Both the position numbers and the translations under genes were made by a program. A stretch of 11,633 nt of DNA from Deltaproteobacteria bacterium (GTDB lineage Bacteria > Desulfobacterota > Desulfarculia > Adiutricales > Adiutricaceae): positions 1 to 11,633 of the forward strand of contig JAITJT010000113.1 of the NCBI GenBank assembly GCA_031278795.1, given 5' to 3'. The notes under the pieces were generated by a model. That model was not told where the DNA came from and made no database searches. It saw only the letters and a list, made by a program, of their open reading frames with translations. This document shows, in pieces, positions 1,180 through 11,440 of this stretch (its first letter is position 1; every line of letters starts with the position of its first letter).

Positions 1180-1929
1180 CTAGGATTTTATAAGTATAAA
1201 GACAGCAAGCGACCCTTTAAGCTGATCGAGTAGGAGGATATAGCGCTCGTCACCCCGGCTGATTATGAGGCTGTCTCCGGCCTCCATGGTCCGGGTGTGG
1301 CGGGTGTCCGAGTCCAGGTGCTGAACCCGCACCTGGGCCACCTTGTCCAGGCTGTCTATCTCCAGAATCGACAAACGCACCTGGCCGTCCAGGATGAGTT
1401 TAGACTCCTCCGAGCGCATGGAGATACGGCTTAGGTCCTGGGGATCTAGGTTGTCCTTGGCAATGGAATCCGTGTTCGGCGGGGCGTTTTCCGGGATAAG
1501 GAGATCCGGACCCCGTGGGGCGCCCGAGCCGGCCGCGGCCATGGCGAGATCTCCCTCCTCTGGGGAGTTTGGGGCGGACGCAACTGGAGCTTGTTCGGGG
1601 CTGACACTTTCCGGAGATAGAGCGGGCGCTACAGCGCCCGCGTCTGGGGAAGCGTTAGAAGAAGCGTCCGTTTTAGCTTCAGCTGTGGTGGCTGAGGCGG
1701 GCGCATTTTGGCCTTTAAGTGCCTTAATCTCGTCGGATTGCAGCTTTAGCTGCTCTTTAAGGGAGCTTATTTGGGCCGCCATCCTCACCCGCTCCTCTTC
1801 ATAGCGGGCAATCCTGGCCTTGGCCGTCTGGCGTCCGTTGTCAAAGCTGAAATAGTAAACCAGGCCGCAGAGGATAAATAGAGCAAGGAGGCGCCAGAGC
1901 CTGTCGAATCTGGGGTTTTCCCAACCCAT
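1180..1929 (-). CDS. Single-pass membrane protein, coiled coil and Pro/Ala linker, unknown function
   Basis: 249 residues that I do not recognise as a named family. Visible parts in order: a short N-terminus with basic residues; one hydrophobic segment at about 11-28 (LWRLLALFILCGLVYYFSF); a charged heptad-like region at about 38-73 suggesting a coiled coil; a long Ala/Pro/Ser/Glu-rich linker at about 75-160; and a compact C-terminal domain at about 165-249 with alternating hydrophobic strands (SKLILDGQVRLSILEI, ERYILLLDQL, SLAVFILIK). Topology is probably N-in with the C-terminal domain in the periplasm, which is inference. The ATG overlaps the stop of the dual-receiver gene by one base (TGATG). 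There is no Shine-Dalgarno of its own, so translation is probably coupled to that gene. The tight link to signalling genes suggests a partner or output in the same pathway, but no function can be assigned. Confidence 0.75.
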   Translation of the reverse strand: MGWENPRFDRLWRLLALFILCGLVYYFSFDNGRQTAKARIARYEEERVRMAAQISSLKEQLKLQSDEIKALKGQNAPASATTAEAKTDASSNASPDAGAVAPALSPESVSPEQAPVASAPNSPEEGDLAMAAAGSGAPRGPDLLIPENAPPNTDSIAKDNLDPQDLSRISMRSEESKLILDGQVRLSILEIDSLDKVAQVRVQHLDSDTRHTRTMEAGDSLIISRGDERYILLLDQLKGSLAVFILIKS

Positions 1930-2849
1930 CAGAGGATTAAGCCCAGGGCTATCCTGGTAATGAACTCGGCCGTGGCACTGTCGCTTGCGGGTTTGAGGAG
2001 GCAGTCGTCCACGCCGTTACCCGGGGCCATCACCAGCGGGAGCTTGTCCTCTGAGGCGGTGCAGACCACGAAATAGCAGGGCGTGAATTTCTGGTTGTAT
2101 TTGAGTTCCTTGCAGAAGTCCACCCCGGTCTTGCCGTCCTCCAGGGTGTAGTCCGAGAGCACTATGCGGGGCTTCTCCTTTAAGGTAAGAGGCACCGCCT
2201 CCTCTATGCTTGTGGCGGTGACCACCACGAAATTGAAGTCCTCCAGGAGCTTCTTTAGGATCTCCCTTTGGTAGCCGGAGTCCGATAGCACGAGGATCTT
2301 CCTTGGCTGGGTGCTGACAGGGGTGGTGAGGAGATAGTTCACCAGCTTCTGGGCGCTGTTTAGCTGGATTTTTAATTTTCCCAGCCTCTGGCCCTGGTCC
2401 TGGAGCTCCTGCTCCAGGGACTGGGTGTCCTCACCGGTGCGCGTCCGCGAGGGCCCGGAGTGGGCCCTTTGCAGGGTGTTTATGAAAAGCGTCTTGGTGG
2501 TGTCTTGGAGGAGGAAACCCTTGACGCCCTCGTTGAAGGCCAGAACCACGTTTTCCCTATCAGCCGGTTCCACGGAGTCTATGAAGATGAAGGAGGTGTT
2601 GGGATACTCGTCGGTTACCGCCTGCATGACCTTCACGCTCTGCTCATCCTCGTGGTTATAGTCCATAACCACGATATCCGGCTTCTGTTTGAGGATGGCC
2701 TGGGTAATCCTGGTGATGGGAAGGGCATCTTCCTCGCCCTCCACCGGGGCCTTGGGGGTGAGTACTTGATATTTTTCCCCTTCCAGAAAGCCTTTCAGCT
2801 TCTCGATGAGGGTTTGGTCTTGTATCTGAAAAAAGATTGTTGCGCTCAT
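1929..2849 (-). CDS. Dual receiver-domain protein with degenerate N-terminal receiver
   Basis: 306 residues: receiver-like domain 1 (about 2-128), a Gln/Glu/Leu-rich helical linker (about 142-172), and receiver domain 2 (about 183-304). No DNA-binding or enzymatic output domain is present. Receiver 2 looks functional: acidic Asp190 in the first loop, phospho-acceptor Asp233 (VLSDY), Thr264 (VVCTAS) and Lys286 (LLKPAS). Receiver 1 keeps an Asp63 (VVMDY) and Ser92, but has FFQIQDQ where the acidic pair should be and Gln115 where the conserved Lys is expected (GFLLQDT), so it is probably a pseudo-receiver. The ATG has no good Shine-Dalgarno; the bases before it read TTCCTCTA. The gene lies 261 bp after cheA on the same strand and overlaps the membrane-protein gene downstream by one base. 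It may take phosphate from, or dock to, the CheA; this is inference. Confidence 0.82.
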   Translation of the reverse strand: MSATIFFQIQDQTLIEKLKGFLEGEKYQVLTPKAPVEGEEDALPITRITQAILKQKPDIVVMDYNHEDEQSVKVMQAVTDEYPNTSFIFIDSVEPADRENVVLAFNEGVKGFLLQDTTKTLFINTLQRAHSGPSRTRTGEDTQSLEQELQDQGQRLGKLKIQLNSAQKLVNYLLTTPVSTQPRKILVLSDSGYQREILKKLLEDFNFVVVTATSIEEAVPLTLKEKPRIVLSDYTLEDGKTGVDFCKELKYNQKFTPCYFVVCTASEDKLPLVMAPGNGVDDCLLKPASDSATAEFITRIALGLIL

Positions 2850-3110: not shown

Positions 3111-5297
3111 TCACTCAACAGCTAGGTTTTCGTACTCGACCACGTTGTAGAGTTTCTTCAACTGGTTCTCACAGAAGCGGTTCACCTCTTCTAGGGAGTG
3201 GGTGGTGGAGAACATGACCTTGAGCTTCTCGGTGGCCAGGCCCTTTTCTATCTTCTCGAGGCTGGGGACGGTGTCGATTAGATCGCCCACCAAGGCTAGC
3301 CTTTTTACTATGAGATAGGCTACCAGAGAGGTCTCCTGGAAGGAGGGGCCTATTTGGAACATGGACTGGTAGATGCGCATGCCCTTGGTGATTAGCTTGG
3401 AGAAGTACAATATGGTTCCCAAGGGAGAGAGGTGGAAGTTGCCGTCCTCAGGCTCCTGGGAGGCCTTGTCCTTCTGCTCGGTGCGCTTGTAGCGGGCGAG
3501 CTCGGCCAAGAGATCCGGGTCGCTCACCTCGTAGCCCCGGCCGGCCCTAATCTCGGATATGCCCTGCTCCATGTTCTTGACGGCGTCAAGGAGAAGATCT
3601 ATTACGTCTTGGTCCACCTTCAGCTCTTTTTCGCGCACCTGATCCAAGACTGTCTCCACCTCGTGGACAAAGGTGCCCACGTTGGTGAAACCCGTCATGA
3701 TGAAGTTTCCCTTGATGGAGTGGAAGTGCCTGAATATGGTGTTGACCCTACGGATGTTCTCGGGATCCTTTTCCAGCTGGAAGATCTCCTCGTTAAGATC
3801 GTTTAGGATGTTTATTATCTCAACGTAGAACTCCTCGGCCATAGCCTCGTCCATGGTGCCTTCCTGGGGCTTTCCGGTGGCCGGGGCCTTGGAGGGTGCC
3901 GAGGCGTCTCCAGGAGACGCCTCGGTCTGGGCCTCCTTGGTGTCTTTAGTCTCAGTGGGCTCATCGTCTTCGATATCCTCGATGCTGGAGTGGTCCATGA
4001 AGCTGCCGTCGGTCGCTTCCATGATGCGGCCGGTGGAGAGGGCGATGAGGTCGAAGGGGTCCAGGACCATTCCCAGCTGGCTTCCGCCCAGGATGGTGGT
4101 GCCGGCTACGCCCCGCACGGAAAATATCTCCGGAAGCGGTATGAGCACCAGCTTCTGGGGCCTGATGAACTCCGAGACCTTGAGGGCTATGCGTCCATTT
4201 TTGGCGTCAATGATTATGACCGGAAGGTAGTCCTTGAACTCTGATGAGGCTAGGGGCGTTCCGGTTAAGAGGCCCCTTAGGTCATGGAGAGGCACTATGG
4301 TTCCCAGATAGGTGATACTCTCGGTGCGCTCCATGGTGGTGTGCACGTCTGAGACGTTGAAGGACTGGGTGGCCACTACGTTTCCGATGGGAACCGCGTA
4401 ATAGCTCTCCCCTGAGCGGATTATGAGGGCGTCCGTTATGTTGACCGCTGATAGCTGGGGGATCTTGTAGGTGAAGGTGGTGCCCTTACCGGGAACCGTA
4501 TCCACTATTATCTCACCACCTAGGTTCTCCACCGTGCTCTTGACCACGTCCATGCCCACGCCACGGCCGGATATCTCAGTGGCCTCAGAGGCCGTGGAGA
4601 AGCCCGGGAGCATGATGAGGTTCCAGACCTCCTGCTTGGAGATGGCGTGCGCGGCCGATGCCGGCAGAAAGCCCTTCTCCACCGCCACCTGGCGAATGCG
4701 GTTCTCGTCGAGACCGTGGCCGTCGTCGGCTACGGATACGTAGGTGAAACCCTCTTTCTTGTAGGCGGTTAGGGTAAGTTGGCCCGTGGGGGATTTACCG
4801 GCGTGCTTGCGCTCCAGAGGGTCTTCCAGGCCGTGGTCCACGGCGTTTCGGATCTGGTGGGCCAGAGGCTCGTAGAGCCTCTCGGCCACGGTCTTGTCCA
4901 CCAAGGTGTCCTCACCCACTATCTCGAAATTAACCTGCCTACCCTTCTTCTTGGCCAAATCCCTAACCAATCGCCTGAAGCGCAGGAAGGTCTCCTTGAT
5001 GGGCACCATGCGGATGTCCATGACCAGGTGGTGCAAGTCCGAGGAGATGCGGTTGGTGGTCATGGCCACGTTCTTGATCATCTCCATGGAGTTCTTGTCT
5101 ATGTTCACTGATGCGGTGGAGAGGTGACGCTGGAGGATGGATATGTTGGAGGCGGAGATGATTATCTCCCCGGTCAGGCCCAAGAGCTTGTCCAGATGGG
5201 AGATCTTGACCGCCATGCGGTCCAGTTCGGGGGGAGCGCCTTTGCTCACCTGATCCTTTTGATCGGCTGCGGTTTCTCCCGGGCTGTTACCACTCAT
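3111..5297 (-). CDS. cheA: CheA-type histidine kinase with circularly permuted domains (P3-P4-P5-P1-P2)
   Basis: 728 residues. CheA autophosphorylates on a P1 histidine and passes phosphate to CheY-type receivers in the cytoplasm. Domains in order: P3 dimerisation (about 27-95, ending in DIRMVPI); P4 ATPase (about 96-280) with N box HQIRNAVDHGLE (147-158), G1 DDGHGLD (191-197), F box PGFSTA (231-236), G2 GRGVGMD (244-250) and GKGTTF (270-275); P5 CheW-like (about 284-424, GTIVPLHDLRG); an acidic Pro/Thr linker (about 430-480); P1 Hpt (about 485-605) with HSIKG at 526-530, His526 being the likely phospho-acceptor, and HEVETVLDQV following; then a C-terminal domain (about 638-722; LIVKRLALVGDLIDTVPSLE) that resembles the CheY-binding P2 domain. 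Canonical CheA is P1-P2-P3-P4-P5, so this is a circular permutation with nothing essential missing. The P2 call is by eye and weaker than the rest. The ATG at 5297 is chosen because GAGGG sits 9 nt upstream; a TTG at 5321 is possible. The start overlaps the CheY gene by 11 nt. Confidence 0.93.
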   Translation of the reverse strand: MSGNSPGETAADQKDQVSKGAPPELDRMAVKISHLDKLLGLTGEIIISASNISILQRHLSTASVNIDKNSMEMIKNVAMTTNRISSDLHHLVMDIRMVPIKETFLRFRRLVRDLAKKKGRQVNFEIVGEDTLVDKTVAERLYEPLAHQIRNAVDHGLEDPLERKHAGKSPTGQLTLTAYKKEGFTYVSVADDGHGLDENRIRQVAVEKGFLPASAAHAISKQEVWNLIMLPGFSTASEATEISGRGVGMDVVKSTVENLGGEIIVDTVPGKGTTFTYKIPQLSAVNITDALIIRSGESYYAVPIGNVVATQSFNVSDVHTTMERTESITYLGTIVPLHDLRGLLTGTPLASSEFKDYLPVIIIDAKNGRIALKVSEFIRPQKLVLIPLPEIFSVRGVAGTTILGGSQLGMVLDPFDLIALSTGRIMEATDGSFMDHSSIEDIEDDEPTETKDTKEAQTEASPGDASAPSKAPATGKPQEGTMDEAMAEEFYVEIINILNDLNEEIFQLEKDPENIRRVNTIFRHFHSIKGNFIMTGFTNVGTFVHEVETVLDQVREKELKVDQDVIDLLLDAVKNMEQGISEIRAGRGYEVSDPDLLAELARYKRTEQKDKASQEPEDGNFHLSPLGTILYFSKLITKGMRIYQSMFQIGPSFQETSLVAYLIVKRLALVGDLIDTVPSLEKIEKGLATEKLKVMFSTTHSLEEVNRFCENQLKKLYNVVEYENLAVE

Positions 5298-5691
5298 GAT
5301 TGAATACCCTCGCAAGAACAACGCTCACCATCTCGGCGGTTGGCGGTTTGATTAGATAGTCGTCTGCCCCCAGGCGCAGGGCCCGGAAGATGTACTTGTA
5401 GTCAGCGTGGGTGCTGAGGATGACCACTGGAATGCTACGGTACTTGGCGTTGTTGCGGAGGGCCTCGGTAAGCTCGAAACCGTCCATCTCGGCCATGACC
5501 AGATCGCTTATCACCAGATCCACTGGCGCCTTGGAGAGGAGATCCAGGGCTTCGACACCGTTCACCGCCTCGGTCACAATGAGACCCATGGAGGCGAAGA
5601 GCTCCTTTATGGTCTTCCTGACCGCCTGGTAGTCGTCCACCACCAAGACGGACTTGCCCTGCCAGATCTTTCCGTCAACTTGCTTTGCCAT
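5287..5691 (-). CDS. CheY-like single-domain response regulator
   Basis: A stand-alone receiver of 134 residues (138 if the upstream GTG at 5703 is used). Key residues in 134-numbering: acidic pair Asp19-Asp20 (LVVDDY), phospho-acceptor Asp63 (VISDLVMAEMDGFE), Ser93 at the switch Ser/Thr position (VILSTHAD), Tyr112 at the aromatic switch position and Lys115 before Pro (GADDYLIKPP). All catalytic positions are intact and there is no output domain, so it acts by protein-protein contact. The start is ambiguous: GGGAGA lies about 13 nt before the ATG but only 0-2 nt before the GTG, so ATG is preferred. It is the first gene of the unit and overlaps cheA by 11 nt, which suggests that it is the direct phospho-acceptor of that kinase. 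Whether it controls a flagellar motor or another output is not shown. Confidence 0.92.
   Translation of the reverse strand: MAKQVDGKIWQGKSVLVVDDYQAVRKTIKELFASMGLIVTEAVNGVEALDLLSKAPVDLVISDLVMAEMDGFELTEALRNNAKYRSIPVVILSTHADYKYIFRALRLGADDYLIKPPTAEMVSVVLARVFNHEW
5307..5311 (-). promoter_or_regulatory. Shine-Dalgarno fixing the cheA start
   Basis: GAGGG on the minus strand, 9 nt before the ATG at 5297 and inside the end of the CheY gene. The longer TTG frame (5321) has no such site, which is why the shorter CheA is preferred. Confidence 0.6.
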
Positions 5692-5940: not shown

Positions 5941-6882
5941 TTACAGGGTTTTAAGGCGCTCCTTGGCGACTCCGGCTGAGTAGCTCTTGGGGTATTCCCT
6001 CACCACCTTGTTGTAGAGGAGCTTGGCGGAGTTGGTGTCGCCTATGGCTTGGAAGGAGAGGCCCTGCTTGAGTAACGCGGCCGATACCAAGGTGTTCTTG
6101 GGAAAGCCAGTGATCATGGTCTGGTACTCCAGGATAGCGTCCTCGAACTTGCTCTGGAAATATAAAGATTCCCCTATGTAGTACTGGGCCGCCGGAGCCT
6201 GCTTTCCGGTGGGCTCGGCCTTTAAGTACTCCTGAAAGAGAAGCACCGCGCTGGCGTAGTCCTTCTTGTCGAAAAGTAGCTTGGCCCTATCATAGGCGCT
6301 CTCCACTGGGGCTGGCGCCGGAACGGCCGCGGGTGCCTCACCCGAGGGGCCGGCCTGCACCTGGGGCCCGGTCTGGATGGTTCCCTCCGGTAGAGGTGGC
6401 CCAGGCAAAGCTTGCGGCTGGCTAGCCGCGGCGGCTGCGCCCGCCGCGGCGGGAAGGGCTGCTTCGCCCGCAGGGTCAACCACGGGCACGGCCGGAGGGC
6501 TTAGAACCGGAACATTCGCTGGCAAAGGCGGGTTGGGTGTCACCACGGCCACGTCCAGAGGCTGGAGGTTGGCCCTCTTCTCCAGGCGGTCGAGCCTGGC
6601 CGAGAGGTACTCCAGCTGCTGACGAAGGGAAAGTCCTCCGATGGTCGCGGTGTCCACGTTTTCATTGAGGCGCTGGATATTAGTGCGCATCTGGTCTATC
6701 TCTTGCCTGAGGCCCGATCCACCGCCTCCACCAGATTGATCCTTGAGGTTGGCCACCTCCATCTTTAAAACGTTCACCTCGCGCTCCAGGGAGGAATTCC
6801 CAACCAGTCCTCCTCCCGTGGCGCATGAGCACAGGAACAAGAGGGCCAACCCGGCGATAGAGAGTGTCAGCTTATATCTCAT
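5941..6882 (-). CDS. ybgF: YbgF/CpoB-like lipoprotein with coiled coil and TPR repeats
   Basis: 313 residues. In the known family (YbgF/CpoB) the protein trimerises, binds TolA and helps coordinate outer-membrane constriction with septal wall synthesis. Visible here: a signal peptide with lipobox LCSC (Cys20 as lipidated residue; Cys18 also lies in the motif), so it is probably a lipoprotein where E. coli CpoB is soluble; a coiled coil at about 32-104, broken by a Gly-rich stretch at 51-57; a long Pro/Ala-rich linker at about 106-194; and a C-terminal TPR block at about 195-311 (YDRAKLLFDKKDYASAVLLF, YYIGESLYFQSKFEDAILEY, LKQGLSFQAIGDTNSAKLLY). GGGAGA lies 6-7 nt before the ATG. It has its own terminator and a candidate promoter, so it is probably monocistronic. 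No tolQRAB or pal is in the window, so the Tol-Pal link rests on architecture alone. A BamD-like or other TPR lipoprotein is the alternative. Confidence 0.85.
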   Translation of the reverse strand: MRYKLTLSIAGLALLFLCSCATGGGLVGNSSLEREVNVLKMEVANLKDQSGGGGGSGLRQEIDQMRTNIQRLNENVDTATIGGLSLRQQLEYLSARLDRLEKRANLQPLDVAVVTPNPPLPANVPVLSPPAVPVVDPAGEAALPAAAGAAAAASQPQALPGPPLPEGTIQTGPQVQAGPSGEAPAAVPAPAPVESAYDRAKLLFDKKDYASAVLLFQEYLKAEPTGKQAPAAQYYIGESLYFQSKFEDAILEYQTMITGFPKNTLVSAALLKQGLSFQAIGDTNSAKLLYNKVVREYPKSYSAGVAKERLKTL

Positions 6883-8155: not shown

Positions 8156-8833
8156 GCTTGAACTCCCATATTTAATCTAACTTTTCTCACAAAATAGCTG
8201 CGGATTCTTAACAAAATTGCGCTCCTTGGCAAGTCATGATAGAGAGCTAAGATCTTAAACGCACCATATACAAGCAACAAAATCTAAAAACACCCCGCAT
8301 ACAGGATTTTTAAGCAAAAAGTACTTCTGAGTACCAAATAGGTAATCGCGCGCGGAGAGAAAAAATTTTTTTCCCTTGGTACTTTAGAAAAAGCTCAAGT
8401 GAAAAATGAGAGAGTTAACAAGATAAGTAAAAACATTTTCAAAATCAAAAGAAAGAGAGAGTAGGGAAAATTTTTGTTCAGCTTAGAGGCAAAAGGTCCG
8501 ATACGTAAATAAGCGGGGAAAATGCGTCTCCACCGCAACCCATGGGTCTAAGGCTCACCCCAAAGGGGCCTCTGACCTAAAAAAAATTCCCCTCTAAAAG
8601 TGGCCTCCTTCTTGCAGTGTCACTTCACGGAAAGCTTCAGCCCCTTTCCCTAAGGCTCATTCCCATTAAGCCACAAGGCCCACCAAACGCAAAAAAAAGA
8701 GGTGGAACCCCAAAAGCCCGGCGGCATAGAAAAAAACGCAAAGGACGTGTGCGGGGTAAAAAGGTGACAGGGGCGGGGAGAAAATTCTCCCTAAGCTAAA
8801 AGAAACCGAAAAAGGCCATGAGGAGTTTTGGCA
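8156..8833. other. Gene-free region upstream of the plus-strand genes
   Basis: No supported gene. Visible elements are a small stem GTACT/AGTAC (8321-8334), a CCCC-AAA-GGGG hairpin (8558-8568), a GGGAGA/TCTCCC hairpin (8776-8791) just upstream of the 8834 gene, and a weak plus-strand promoter-like pair, TTGGCA-16-TAAGAT (8226-8253). A 60-residue Lys/Arg-rich frame at 8617-8799 starts at GTG, has no Shine-Dalgarno and looks like translated low-complexity DNA. The final part is probably the leader of the 8834 gene. Confidence 0.45.
8821..8825 (+). promoter_or_regulatory. Shine-Dalgarno fixing the start at 8834
   Basis: AGGAG, 8 nt before the ATG at 8834. An in-frame TTG at 8828 would leave only 2 nt of spacing, so ATG is preferred. 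Confidence 0.65.
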
Positions 8834-9448
8834 ATGGAACAAGTGACTATAGACGGACAGAATTTTGTGGCCAGCGAAATAGCCGGAGCCAATCTTGAGG
8901 AGATACTTCTTAATATTCTGGAACATCCCTCTACCAGCGGGAGGATCATCACCGGGGTGCTCTTAAACGGCGAGCCCTACTCGGAGGAGGTTCCCCACGC
9001 CGCCCTGGAGGTGGAGCGGGAGTCCATCAAAAGCCTGGAGCTGGACACCTTGACCCTGGAGGACGTGGGAATGGCCTTCCTGAAGCAGGGTCCGGAGTAT
9101 CTGGAGACCCTCATGGAGGCGCTCCCCAGGATAATCGAGGCCTTCCGCCTAGGTGACGAGCAGGAGGCCAATGAATATTTCCTCAACTTCCTGGAATCCC
9201 TACAGCTGCTCATGAGCATGCTGGAGCAGACCAGGCAGGTATTAAATCTCTGGCAGGGCCAAGACGAGGAGAGCAGCTCGGATCTTAGCCAGTTCCTGGA
9301 CTCCCTGGTGGAGGTGCTCAACACCCTCATAAGCCTCCAGGAGCAGAAGGACTGGATCTTCCTGGCGGATGTCTTGGAGTACGAGCTCACCGACGCCCTT
9401 AAAAAGCTCGCGGAACTGCTCCCGCTACTGAGCCATGGCGGCCACTAA
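8834..9448 (+). CDS. Acidic helical protein of unknown function
   Basis: 204 residues, strongly acidic, with no signal peptide or membrane segment, so probably cytoplasmic. The first 80 residues look mixed alpha/beta (VTIDGQNFVASEI, GRIITGVLLNGEPY, IKSLELDTLTLEDV). The rest is almost all amphipathic helix rich in Leu and Glu (YLETLMEALPRIIEAF, FLESLQLLMSMLEQTRQVL, FLDSLVEVLNTLISLQEQ, LTDALKKLAELLPLL). The start is supported by AGGAG 8 nt upstream. It lies 65 bp before the 9514 gene with no terminator between them, so the two are probably co-transcribed. I do not recognise the family; the pairing with a FlgN/FliT-like helical protein allows a role in flagellar or secretion assembly, but that is a guess. 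Confidence 0.78.
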   Translation: MEQVTIDGQNFVASEIAGANLEEILLNILEHPSTSGRIITGVLLNGEPYSEEVPHAALEVERESIKSLELDTLTLEDVGMAFLKQGPEYLETLMEALPRIIEAFRLGDEQEANEYFLNFLESLQLLMSMLEQTRQVLNLWQGQDEESSSDLSQFLDSLVEVLNTLISLQEQKDWIFLADVLEYELTDALKKLAELLPLLSHGGH

Positions 9449-9513: not shown

Positions 9514-9960
9514 ATGAAGGATAATAAAAAGTACAACAATTCAGATAAGGCCTTTTTAATGAAAACCCTGGAGCTTTCCAAGGACTGCCTGGATCTCGAC
9601 AGGCATTTCCTAGGCGATCTGGAGAAGAAGGCCGCCTCCGGTGACGATCCCCTGGATCCCTCCCTTTGGGAAAACTTCATAGAGGCCAGACGCAACCTGG
9701 TGGACTTCACCACCTCGAATCTGAACATGCTCGCCCAAGACCGCGAGAGCCAGAACCGACACAAGGATGTCATGAGCCGCTTGGAAAGCACCCTAGGCGA
9801 GGTCGTGAAGCTAGAAGAGAAGCTCACTCGCTTCCTCTCGGAAAACCTGGGAGTGCTCAAAGAGACCATTGACGGCATAAGCAAGAACCAGGCGATTTTC
9901 TCAGCCTACGGCCGCGGAAACGGGAAACCCAGGCCCGAGGCCCTGGAGACCAGGGCATAG
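9514..9960 (+). CDS. Small helical protein, faintly FlgN/FliT-like
   Basis: 148 residues, charged and almost entirely alpha-helical, with no signal peptide or membrane segment. A long helix at about 52-90 is followed by a coiled-coil-like segment at about 91-125 (LESTLGEVVKLEEKLTRFL) and a flexible tail from about residue 132 (YGRGNGKPRPEALETRA). Size, helical make-up and an ISKNQAIFSAYG end resemble flagellar export chaperones of the FlgN/FliT type, which bind hook-associated or cap proteins. These families diverge strongly and I see no decisive motif, so the call is tentative. AGGAAGG (9501-9507) lies 6 nt before the ATG. It is the second gene of a pair and is followed at once by a strong terminator. 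Confidence 0.7.
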   Translation: MKDNKKYNNSDKAFLMKTLELSKDCLDLDRHFLGDLEKKAASGDDPLDPSLWENFIEARRNLVDFTTSNLNMLAQDRESQNRHKDVMSRLESTLGEVVKLEEKLTRFLSENLGVLKETIDGISKNQAIFSAYGRGNGKPRPEALETRA

Positions 9961-10034: not shown

Positions 10035-10237
10035 TTTCCCTATTAGTCGCGGATAACTCGCGCGCGCATCTAAACTAAAGTGTCTTTGGATGTTTTTAAT
10101 AATTAGCTTCCCATGCTTTATGGATATTTAAGTATAGGGCCTCTACAGCCGTTAAGAAATATGGATTTTTAGCTATCTTGGCTCTCTATCAAAGGGAAGT
10201 AGAGAAAAAAACCGCGCGCAAGTTACGAGAGTGTCTC

Positions 10238-11440
10238 ATGAACATTAACTTCAATTTAAGCTCCAGCGTTTTCAACCAAGGTGCGGGAAACAAGCTAAAT
10301 CTTGGAGATGGTCTGAGGATTGGCGGGAAGAAAACATCCGAGATAGTTAAAGCAGAAGATCAAACGAGTGTAGAGCCTACCCAGGTTAAAAGCGAAAATA
10401 ATGTAACTTTTGAGGTAAAACTTAGCCAGAATCTGGAAAGAGCTCAGAAAAAGACTGAGATAACTAATCAGCTAAAGAGCAGCATAATAACACTCTCGAG
10501 TGAGATTGGGCGTAAATTAGGTACCGAGGCGGAAAACGAGTTCAAGGTTGGAATATTAAAGGCCACGGAAGATTCCGTAAACGAAGAGAAAATCGCCGGC
10601 GCGGTCACAGACTTTTTCACCCAAGTGCGGATGCTCCCTGACAAATACCCGACAGCTTACAAACACTTAGCGAGCTTTAACGATTATCTCAATCTAGGCT
10701 TGGATTCCCTAAGTGACGAAAGCGCGGAGACTTGCGAGAAAGGGCTCGCCTACTCCCTAAACGTTTTCTTCAACGGCAAGAGTATTGCGGCATCCTCTGA
10801 TCCGGAGATAAAATACTTTAGCACTGCCTTCGCCTGGGAAAAGCGTGAAAAGGAGCTTGAAGCGGCTGAGACCGACGACGGCCTGGACGGCTACTTCGTC
10901 ATGGACTTTCCCTCAAGCGAGATAATCAAATCCGAGGATTTCTCCATATCCCAAGAATATATCCAGATGGCCGCTGACTATCTTAGGGGAAAGCTAGGGA
11001 GCGAGCAAGCGGCCGACTATCTCCTGGAAAACTATTCCACTAAATTCACGGAGTCTTTCGCCACGGTCGTAGCCACAGTAGCCAAGGAAAACGGCCAAGA
11101 GGCCGCATATGATTTCGTCCTTTTCCTAAACGAAAACGTCGCCCCCAACCTTGAGGCCAGTGGATTTACCTTCCGCGGCTGGAACTTAATGAATGATTAC
11201 TCAAAGTCAAGAGACGAATGGCTAGACCTTCCCGCAGTGGACCAGGAAAACGGTTTGTGGGTTGGGGACAATGAAAAAGAGAGTGAGCTCCAAATAAAGC
11301 GGCACCAAGGCGTTCTCTCCAATTTCAACGCCACCGACTCAGAAACGGGCGCCAAACTGTCCGTTCCCGTGGTGTACGACCTAGACGAGCTCTATGACAC
11401 CTTCCTGTCATCTCAAAAGAAGATAGACCTTGTGGTGTAA
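10238..11440 (+). CDS. Unrecognised 400-residue protein
   Basis: 400 residues from the ATG at 10238, which has GAGAG 6 nt upstream; a longer frame from a TTG at 10178 has less support. There is no signal peptide or membrane segment. The first 60 residues are Asn/Ser/Gly/Lys-rich and probably disordered (MNINFNLSSSVFNQGAGNKL). From about 60 to 160 it is helical (LSQNLERAQKKTEITNQLKS). The middle and C-terminal parts are acidic and mixed, with aromatic-rich stretches (IKYFSTAFAWEKREKEL, ASGFTFRGWNLMNDY) and a long helical region (EYIQMAADYLRGKLGSEQAA). It has one cysteine (about 166). The family is not recognised. A disordered N-terminus without a Sec signal would fit a substrate of a flagellar or type III-like export system, but nothing here proves that. 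It starts 210 bp after the terminator and probably has its own promoter. Confidence 0.78.
   Translation: MNINFNLSSSVFNQGAGNKLNLGDGLRIGGKKTSEIVKAEDQTSVEPTQVKSENNVTFEVKLSQNLERAQKKTEITNQLKSSIITLSSEIGRKLGTEAENEFKVGILKATEDSVNEEKIAGAVTDFFTQVRMLPDKYPTAYKHLASFNDYLNLGLDSLSDESAETCEKGLAYSLNVFFNGKSIAASSDPEIKYFSTAFAWEKREKELEAAETDDGLDGYFVMDFPSSEIIKSEDFSISQEYIQMAADYLRGKLGSEQAADYLLENYSTKFTESFATVVATVAKENGQEAAYDFVLFLNENVAPNLEASGFTFRGWNLMNDYSKSRDEWLDLPAVDQENGLWVGDNEKESELQIKRHQGVLSNFNATDSETGAKLSVPVVYDLDELYDTFLSSQKKIDLVV

Follow-up and report, generated by a model that had tools for sequence, protein, structure and literature searches.

A CheA kinase with rotated domain order, encoded in a conserved three-gene module of two bacterial phyla

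Domain order and predicted structure

The window analysed in this study is a stretch of 11,633 nucleotides from a Deltaproteobacteria bacterium (contig JAITJT010000113.1), and it carries a real and complete CheA gene whose parts stand in a rotated order, apparently a variant that has not been described. The frame runs on the minus strand from an ATG at 5297 to 3111 and encodes 728 amino acids free of stops, in agreement with the original prediction of one unbroken frame; an alternative TTG start at 5321 (frame 3111..5321) adds 8 residues. The domains of the protein and the neighbouring genes are given in Table 1.

Table 1. Features of the permuted CheA gene and its surroundings, in window coordinates
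Feature	Position	Strand	Basis or remark
Permuted CheA, P3-P4-P5-P1-P2, 728 aa	3111..5297	-	frame, Pfam, phmmer, AlphaFold model, fold matches
P3 dimerisation domain, residues 30-95, helices 32-61 and 68-94	5013..5210	-	Pfam, model
P4 ATPase, residues 96-282, N, G1, F and G2 boxes	4452..5012	-	
P5 CheW-like domain, residues 285-420, internal rather than C-terminal	4038..4445	-	
Acidic disordered linker between P5 and P1, residues 430-481	3855..4010	-	model, composition, identity
P1 Hpt five-helix domain, residues 484-610	3468..3848	-	
His526, presumed phospho-acceptor of P1	3720-3722	-	
P2 response-regulator docking domain, residues 641-727	3117..3377	-	Pfam, model, 2lp4 match
Single-REC CheY-like protein, 138 aa	5287..5703	-	last 11 nt overlap the CheA start
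Two-receiver protein, 306 aa, conserved downstream partner	1929..2849	-	
Protein with likely N-terminal membrane helix and coiled coil	1180..1929	-	read by eye
YbgF/CpoB-type gene, upstream of the module	5941-6882	-	

The Pfam search that had been proposed as a check of the domain order returned H-kinase_dim, HATPase_c, CheW, Hpt and P2 (PF07194) in that sequence, with Hpt placed after CheW, and all the motifs claimed for the protein, i.e., the N, G1, F and G2 boxes and HSIKG, were found. HATPase_c (residues 141-281, 56.4 bits) and CheW (290-418, 48.6 bits) both exceed their Pfam cut-offs, and it is the presence of these two domains (P4 and P5) in one protein that identifies a CheA in the available text of Berry et al. 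(2023; PMC10782961). H-kinase_dim, at 30-95, reaches 21.2 bits in the window protein, below the cut-off of 23, and passes it in the two relatives scanned (24.8 and 23.3 bits); the position of P3 before P4 is also seen in the structure model, as two long helices. Hpt (486-578, 41.5 bits) retains the phosphorylatable histidine and scores below the P1 domains of the canonical CheAs scanned. P2, at 654-711, is recognised with 29.5 bits against a cut-off of 23, and in two relatives it obtained 34.6 bits and, for the protein of Deltaproteobacteria bacterium Smac51, 22.5 bits, i.e., under that cut-off. As a control, E. coli K-12 CheA went through the same scan and gave Hpt, the CheY-binding domain, H-kinase_dim, HATPase_c and CheW in sequence order.

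The best PDB chains in a phmmer search were likewise CheAs, and alignment to E. coli CheA (6s1k) needs two stretches in swapped order, in which query residues 488-609 pair with chain residues 10-131 and query residues 27-422 with chain residues 263-645. In the AlphaFold model, the permuted positions carry folds that match solved structures of P4, P5 and P1, and the P5 resembles that of a CheA-CheW-receptor complex; many other histidine kinases also appear in the fold-search list, where they match the P4 region. The P2 region, preceded by an extra helix (625-636), is built of beta-alpha elements, and the P1-CheY/P2 complex 2lp4 matches residues 480-727 with 210 aligned positions. The P2-like nature of the C-terminal domain, as originally proposed, is borne out by both the Pfam profile and the structure match. 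Between P5 and P1, the anticipated acidic linker of about 50 residues is present: it is predicted to be disordered (pLDDT under 50) and is rich in acidic residues, Ala and Pro (mean D+E 0.21, K+R 0.06 and A+P 0.33 over 119 of the 120 relatives listed, see below). Its mean identity to the window protein across 99 relatives is 0.17, against 0.63-0.84 for the domains.

Family, module and distribution

Relatives were sought with residues 425-728 as query (E <= 1e-3), which yielded 396 proteins, 120 of which were listed. With domain HMMs made from family members themselves, on which this count depends, P5 precedes P1 and P1 precedes P2 in all 120 listed proteins. The full order P3-P4-P5-P1-P2 was recovered in 107; 11 showed P4-P5-P1-P2, with no P3 match, and two showed P3-P4-P5-P5-P1-P2, in which P5 is split into two matches. 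The canonical order P1-P2-P3-P4-P5 is therefore not that of this family, P1-P2 standing behind P5 in 120/120, and the HMMs, the structure model and the listed proteins agree with the original prediction both on the order and on a cut between P2 and P3. A precomputed P2 annotation is absent from some of the listed relatives. That two genes had been joined at the linker by an assembly or gene-calling error is virtually out of the question: the identical junction recurs in all listed proteins, at loci drawn from many assemblies and on the complete Smac51 chromosome (CP026657.1), and the frame in the window has no stop. The rotated CheA is a real variant because the same order recurs across so many relatives.

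In an alignment of 100 family sequences, the residues of RNA-DHG (N box), DDG, FST and GRGVGMDVV are invariant, as are H526, K529, G530, N531, H545 and E548 of P1, whose H/K/H/E residues are spaced as in E. coli CheA according to the alignment to 6s1k. The histidine motif reads HSIKGN in 119 of the 120 listed proteins and HSMKGN in the remaining one. A Planctomycetaceae copy outside the 100-sequence alignment (L037) has HSITGN, with Lys replaced by Thr, which may be an error or an altered P1. One copy (locus L046 in genome G008) is broken into two open frames, and in another genome (G508) the gene lies on two contigs.

Two side observations concern individual proteins and their naming. One relative (P0081) has a long acidic insertion within P5 (alignment columns 366-448). 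Names given to family members at NCBI include 'chemotaxis protein CheW' and 'Hpt domain-containing protein', and JGI often names them CheA.

The gene was found at 47 loci in GTDB contigs, and its immediate neighbours form a conserved module of a CheY-like REC, the permuted CheA and a tandem-REC protein, present in two phyla. A CheY-like gene lies directly upstream in all 44 loci with room for it, and a tandem-REC gene lies downstream in 42/43; in the sole exception (L032) it sits 2.2 kb further down. Positions of the CheY-like protein that we take to be those of the receiver active site, namely, the acidic pair, the phospho-acceptor, Ser/Thr and Lys, are kept in 21/21 aligned rows. The first receiver of the tandem-REC protein is degenerate, with the Asp missing in L034 and no conserved Lys. 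Its second receiver has the Asp in all 21 rows and Thr and Lys in the 20 rows that reach them, with Ser-Asp in place of the usual acidic pair, so that the protein is possibly a pseudo-receiver pair.

Beyond these three genes the surroundings vary. A membrane coiled-coil gene occurs within 4 kb downstream in 30 of the 47 loci and a YbgF gene upstream in 23, each in none of the ten Planctomycetota loci; the C-terminal part of the coiled-coil protein in the window (1180..1929) gave no convincing Pfam match. Ten other neighbours from seven loci were scanned, of which three lacked matches and seven matched an oligopeptide permease, peptidase C26, TPR (two), a sulfite exporter, Memo and phosphofructokinase. 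Given such varied neighbours, the unit common to the lineages consists of three genes. A role in defence was considered and discarded, since none of the three module proteins had a PADLOC match at E <= 1e-5.

The window also holds a run of uncharacterised plus-strand genes (8828-9448, 9514-9960 and 10178-11440). The second of these has a weak FliT match (20.0 bits against a cut-off of 116), and the first and second belong to clusters met again close to the CheA module in related loci, in 14 and 10 of 48 stretches, respectively.

Most of the 47 loci are titled Deltaproteobacteria or Candidatus Adiutrix, and ten Planctomycetota or Planctomycetaceae; single loci come from the Deltaproteobacteria MAG 'DeMMO2_24' (L034) and a 'Proteobacteria' MAG (L036), and one lies on the complete Smac51 chromosome. 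Judging by isolate names, we take the MAGs behind this Deltaproteobacteria and Candidatus Adiutrix majority to be of termite-gut origin. In genome searches, which detect relatives of the window sequence only, the permuted CheA was present in 37 of the 63 whole genomes of one class, to which L034, L036 and Smac51 belong. It was present in 8 of 294 genomes of the phylum of L037, a figure that overstates the frequency because at least four of the eight had already been reached through the GTDB contig search. Smac51 was the only carrier in an even draw of 198 genomes from its phylum, and the next match there drops from 1129 to 281.5 bits and spans residues 17-428 only.

Array genes, host CheAs and the ancestry of the two halves

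Matches to MCP, CheW, CheR, CheB and FliM occur in each of the 11 carrier genomes studied (per genome 5 to 36 MCP, 7 to 17 CheW, 1 to 9 CheR, 1 to 6 CheB and one FliM). In 10 of the 11, the contig of the permuted gene showed no further CheW match and none to CheR or CheB, several of these contigs measuring no more than about 5-10 kb. The Smac51 chromosome has its closest CheR match at a distance of about 16 kb and its closest other CheW match at about 200 kb. A dedicated chemoreceptor in the operon was also considered and dismissed, as an MCP motif occurs in just one of 48 stretches (L046). Because the module brings no array genes, any coupling to arrays would have to go through P5 alone, and in 7 of the 11 genomes no CheW match scores lower than this P5, though P1 likewise scores below its counterparts in the canonical CheAs scanned. 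FliM is found in 35 of 37 carriers of the class, and the link to flagella is nevertheless weak because 17 of 26 non-carriers of the class have it as well.

Together with the other CheAs that the hosts retain, the missing array genes and the low rank of P5 lend some weight to a different, rather improbable reading, in which the protein is a CheA-like kinase outside arrays, its P5 has a different partner, and the three genes make up an independent phosphorelay from the kinase to the CheY-like and tandem-REC proteins. However, P5 is kept within the family (mean identity to the window protein 0.79) with a fold as in the CheA-CheW-receptor complex, the permuted CheA could make use of array genes located elsewhere, and the frequency of FliM among class carriers, which would suit a motility-linked system, points the same way, for what it is worth given the non-carriers.

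Further CheA frames, taken from chosen regions of the 11 genomes and not comprising every CheA, were present in each genome, and in ten of them at least one had P1 ahead of the core; those of G008 finish with the core, and no P1 was recognised in them. Scored over P3-P5, the ten intact family copies in 10 of the 11 genomes reach at least 629 bits and a fragment of the broken copy in the remaining genome 408 bits, while the other CheA frames fetched reach at most 243 bits. In one genome with the permuted CheA (G009), a separate contig (C309, L094) was seen to carry a canonical CheA that has CheR, CheB and a 529-aa frame with two CheW matches a few kilobases off.

Trees of P1 and of the kinase core (P3-P5) were built from 19 family and 44 canonical rows, and wider sets from 13 and 68 rows. 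The sequences used come from two phyla, from E. coli and from a few plasmids. Among the sequences sampled, the permuted family is one clade in both the kinase-core and the P1 trees: it occupies one side of a branch with support of 100/98 for P1 and 100/100 for P3-P5 in the first trees, and it stands on a long stem as its own clade, with E. coli as the sole reference labelled by a described CheA class (F1-F17, ACF, Tfp). P1 lies before the core in all 76 canonical CheAs with usable P1. In the core tree, AU tests reject two joins of the family, one to E. coli CheA taken together with its neighbour L181 (p 0.027), the other to six canonical CheAs from carrier genomes (p 0.008). Like the other AU results here, these p values are lenient because the groups were picked after the trees had been seen. 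The second rejection and the gap in P3-P5 scores rule out an ordinary copy of a host CheA, as far as the six tested and the frames fetched go.

One ancestry for both halves, for which separate P1 and P4 trees had been proposed as a check, fits the trees without being established by them. In the P1 tree the family joins six canonical CheAs from the phylum of Smac51 (97/80), and the same join returns in the wider P1 tree (98/89), where three of the six were kept. The P3-P5 tree places the same six next to the family with weak support (78/69), and the wider core tree does not reject a join with those neighbours (AU p 0.338), nor one with another group (p 0.101). The core tree allows the placement seen with P1 without showing it.

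This leaves some room for accretion, in which a P3-P4-P5 protein such as that of a bipartite CheA was fused to an Hpt-P2 gene of other ancestry and no rotation took place. The available text of PMC10782961 describes bipartite CheAs whose Hpt is encoded by its own gene within the operon, the core tree allows more than one sister for the family, and L119, the nearest canonical CheA by P1 among those scanned, has no P2 match in Pfam. Accretion is nonetheless doubtful: the P1 tree and the first core tree give identical canonical neighbours, the wider core tree does not reject them, and no distant free-standing P1-P2 relative came up. P1-P2 proteins standing alone were sought among relatives with exact words in common. 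This gave 23 matches at 56-89 percent identity, the majority on contigs just a few kilobases long; apart from two on longer contigs, none pointed to a free-standing ancestor.

These two, the P1-P2-sized family proteins P0127 and P0143, lie on contigs of 136 and 29 kb and may stem from split genes or from copies that were broken. At the histidine motif, the canonical CheAs closest to the permuted family by P1 (L119, L121 and L127-L130) have HNIKGN or HNMKGN.

Proposed working scheme and its place among CheA variants

The best explanation, to which a probability of roughly 80% is assigned, is that of an authentic circularly permuted CheA that serves as the kinase of a three-gene module composed of the CheY-like REC, the permuted CheA and the tandem-REC protein. 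Judged from its sequence, it is most likely a working CheA, in which the C-terminal P1 would be phosphorylated by P4, and P2 would dock the neighbouring CheY-like protein. In the proposed scheme, the protein would dimerise through P3, its internal P5 would couple it to receptors and CheW, and P4 would phosphorylate His526, probably in the partner subunit, the flexible linker behind P5 substituting for the usual tether of P1-P2 to P3. P2 would then dock the upstream CheY-like REC, which would take the phosphate; with its intact active site and its overlapping frame, this protein is the likeliest phosphate acceptor, and P2 the likely site at which it docks. The second receiver of the tandem-REC protein may act as a second output or as a phosphate sink.

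The core unit appears undisturbed because the dimer, ATPase and P5 parts keep their usual sequence, and the sole change would be that P1-P2 are now attached behind P5 and no longer ahead of P3. According to the available text of PMC10782961, an Hpt domain set free from the kinase retains full function, and the moved tether should therefore still permit phosphorylation. The rotation would have arisen once, perhaps by tandem duplication with loss of the ends or by fusion of split halves, and might affect array packing. None of the six canonical CheAs tested from carrier genomes would be the source of the permuted gene by rearrangement, and the module would afterwards have moved between lineages as one unit.

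Compared with canonical CheAs such as those of E. coli and Thermotoga maritima, the permuted protein has the same five domains, the kinase boxes and the H/K/H/E residues of P1, and a contiguous P3-P4-P5 and P1 before P2 are common to both; it differs in that P1-P2 follow P5 instead of preceding P3, in that P5 is internal, and in its disordered P5-P1 linker. A C-terminal Hpt is shared with the sensor kinases ArcB, BvgS and EvgS, in which phosphate passes via a receiver to Hpt. To our knowledge these kinases have no CheW domain and no P3, and in the permuted CheA, P1 is the presumed direct substrate of P4.

The survey in PMC10782961 covered 13,673 CheA sequences for the presence, absence and duplication of domains, and its available text quotes P3-P4-P5 as invariably one configuration. 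The variants given there comprise domain loss, duplication and fusion around this constant core, which the permuted CheA likewise keeps; a CheA with its sole Hpt after CheW, or with a rotated order, is not named in that text. The bipartite CheA3/CheA4 of Rhodobacter sphaeroides, treated in the same text, also has P3-P4-P5 and P1 halves that are not joined as usual, but it consists of two proteins, whereas the permuted CheA is one chain with P1-P2 fused behind P5. No description of a permuted CheA was found in the open-access papers searched, in keeping with the earlier remark that the full order had not been described. The 'circular permutation' of PMC2829493 and PMC5907407 is, in the text available, one of gene order and hence unrelated, and the C-terminal HPt in the available text of PMC11784639 lies on another protein, the two CheA-like proteins there having an N-terminal HPt.

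It is an even bet whether the family constitutes a separate chemosensory class, in which a CheA was permuted once and fixed in one lineage of Deltaproteobacteria, with Planctomycetota sharing the self-contained module. If so, this would be a class in which the phosphodonor hangs behind P5 and not before the dimerisation domain; the topology of P1 relative to the signalling core would be free to evolve, and a natural test of how P1 gets to P4 would be at hand. As a caution, surveys of domain composition can miss domain order, and some pipelines misname permuted CheAs. Models of CheA control start from a P1 and P2 that hang on the N-terminus of P3 and from a P5 that closes the signalling core. 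The permuted family departs from both and, being conserved in sequence and present in two phyla, amounts to a domain-swap experiment made by evolution, which can sort the tether-dependent from the tether-independent parts of the P1-P4 encounter and of array assembly.
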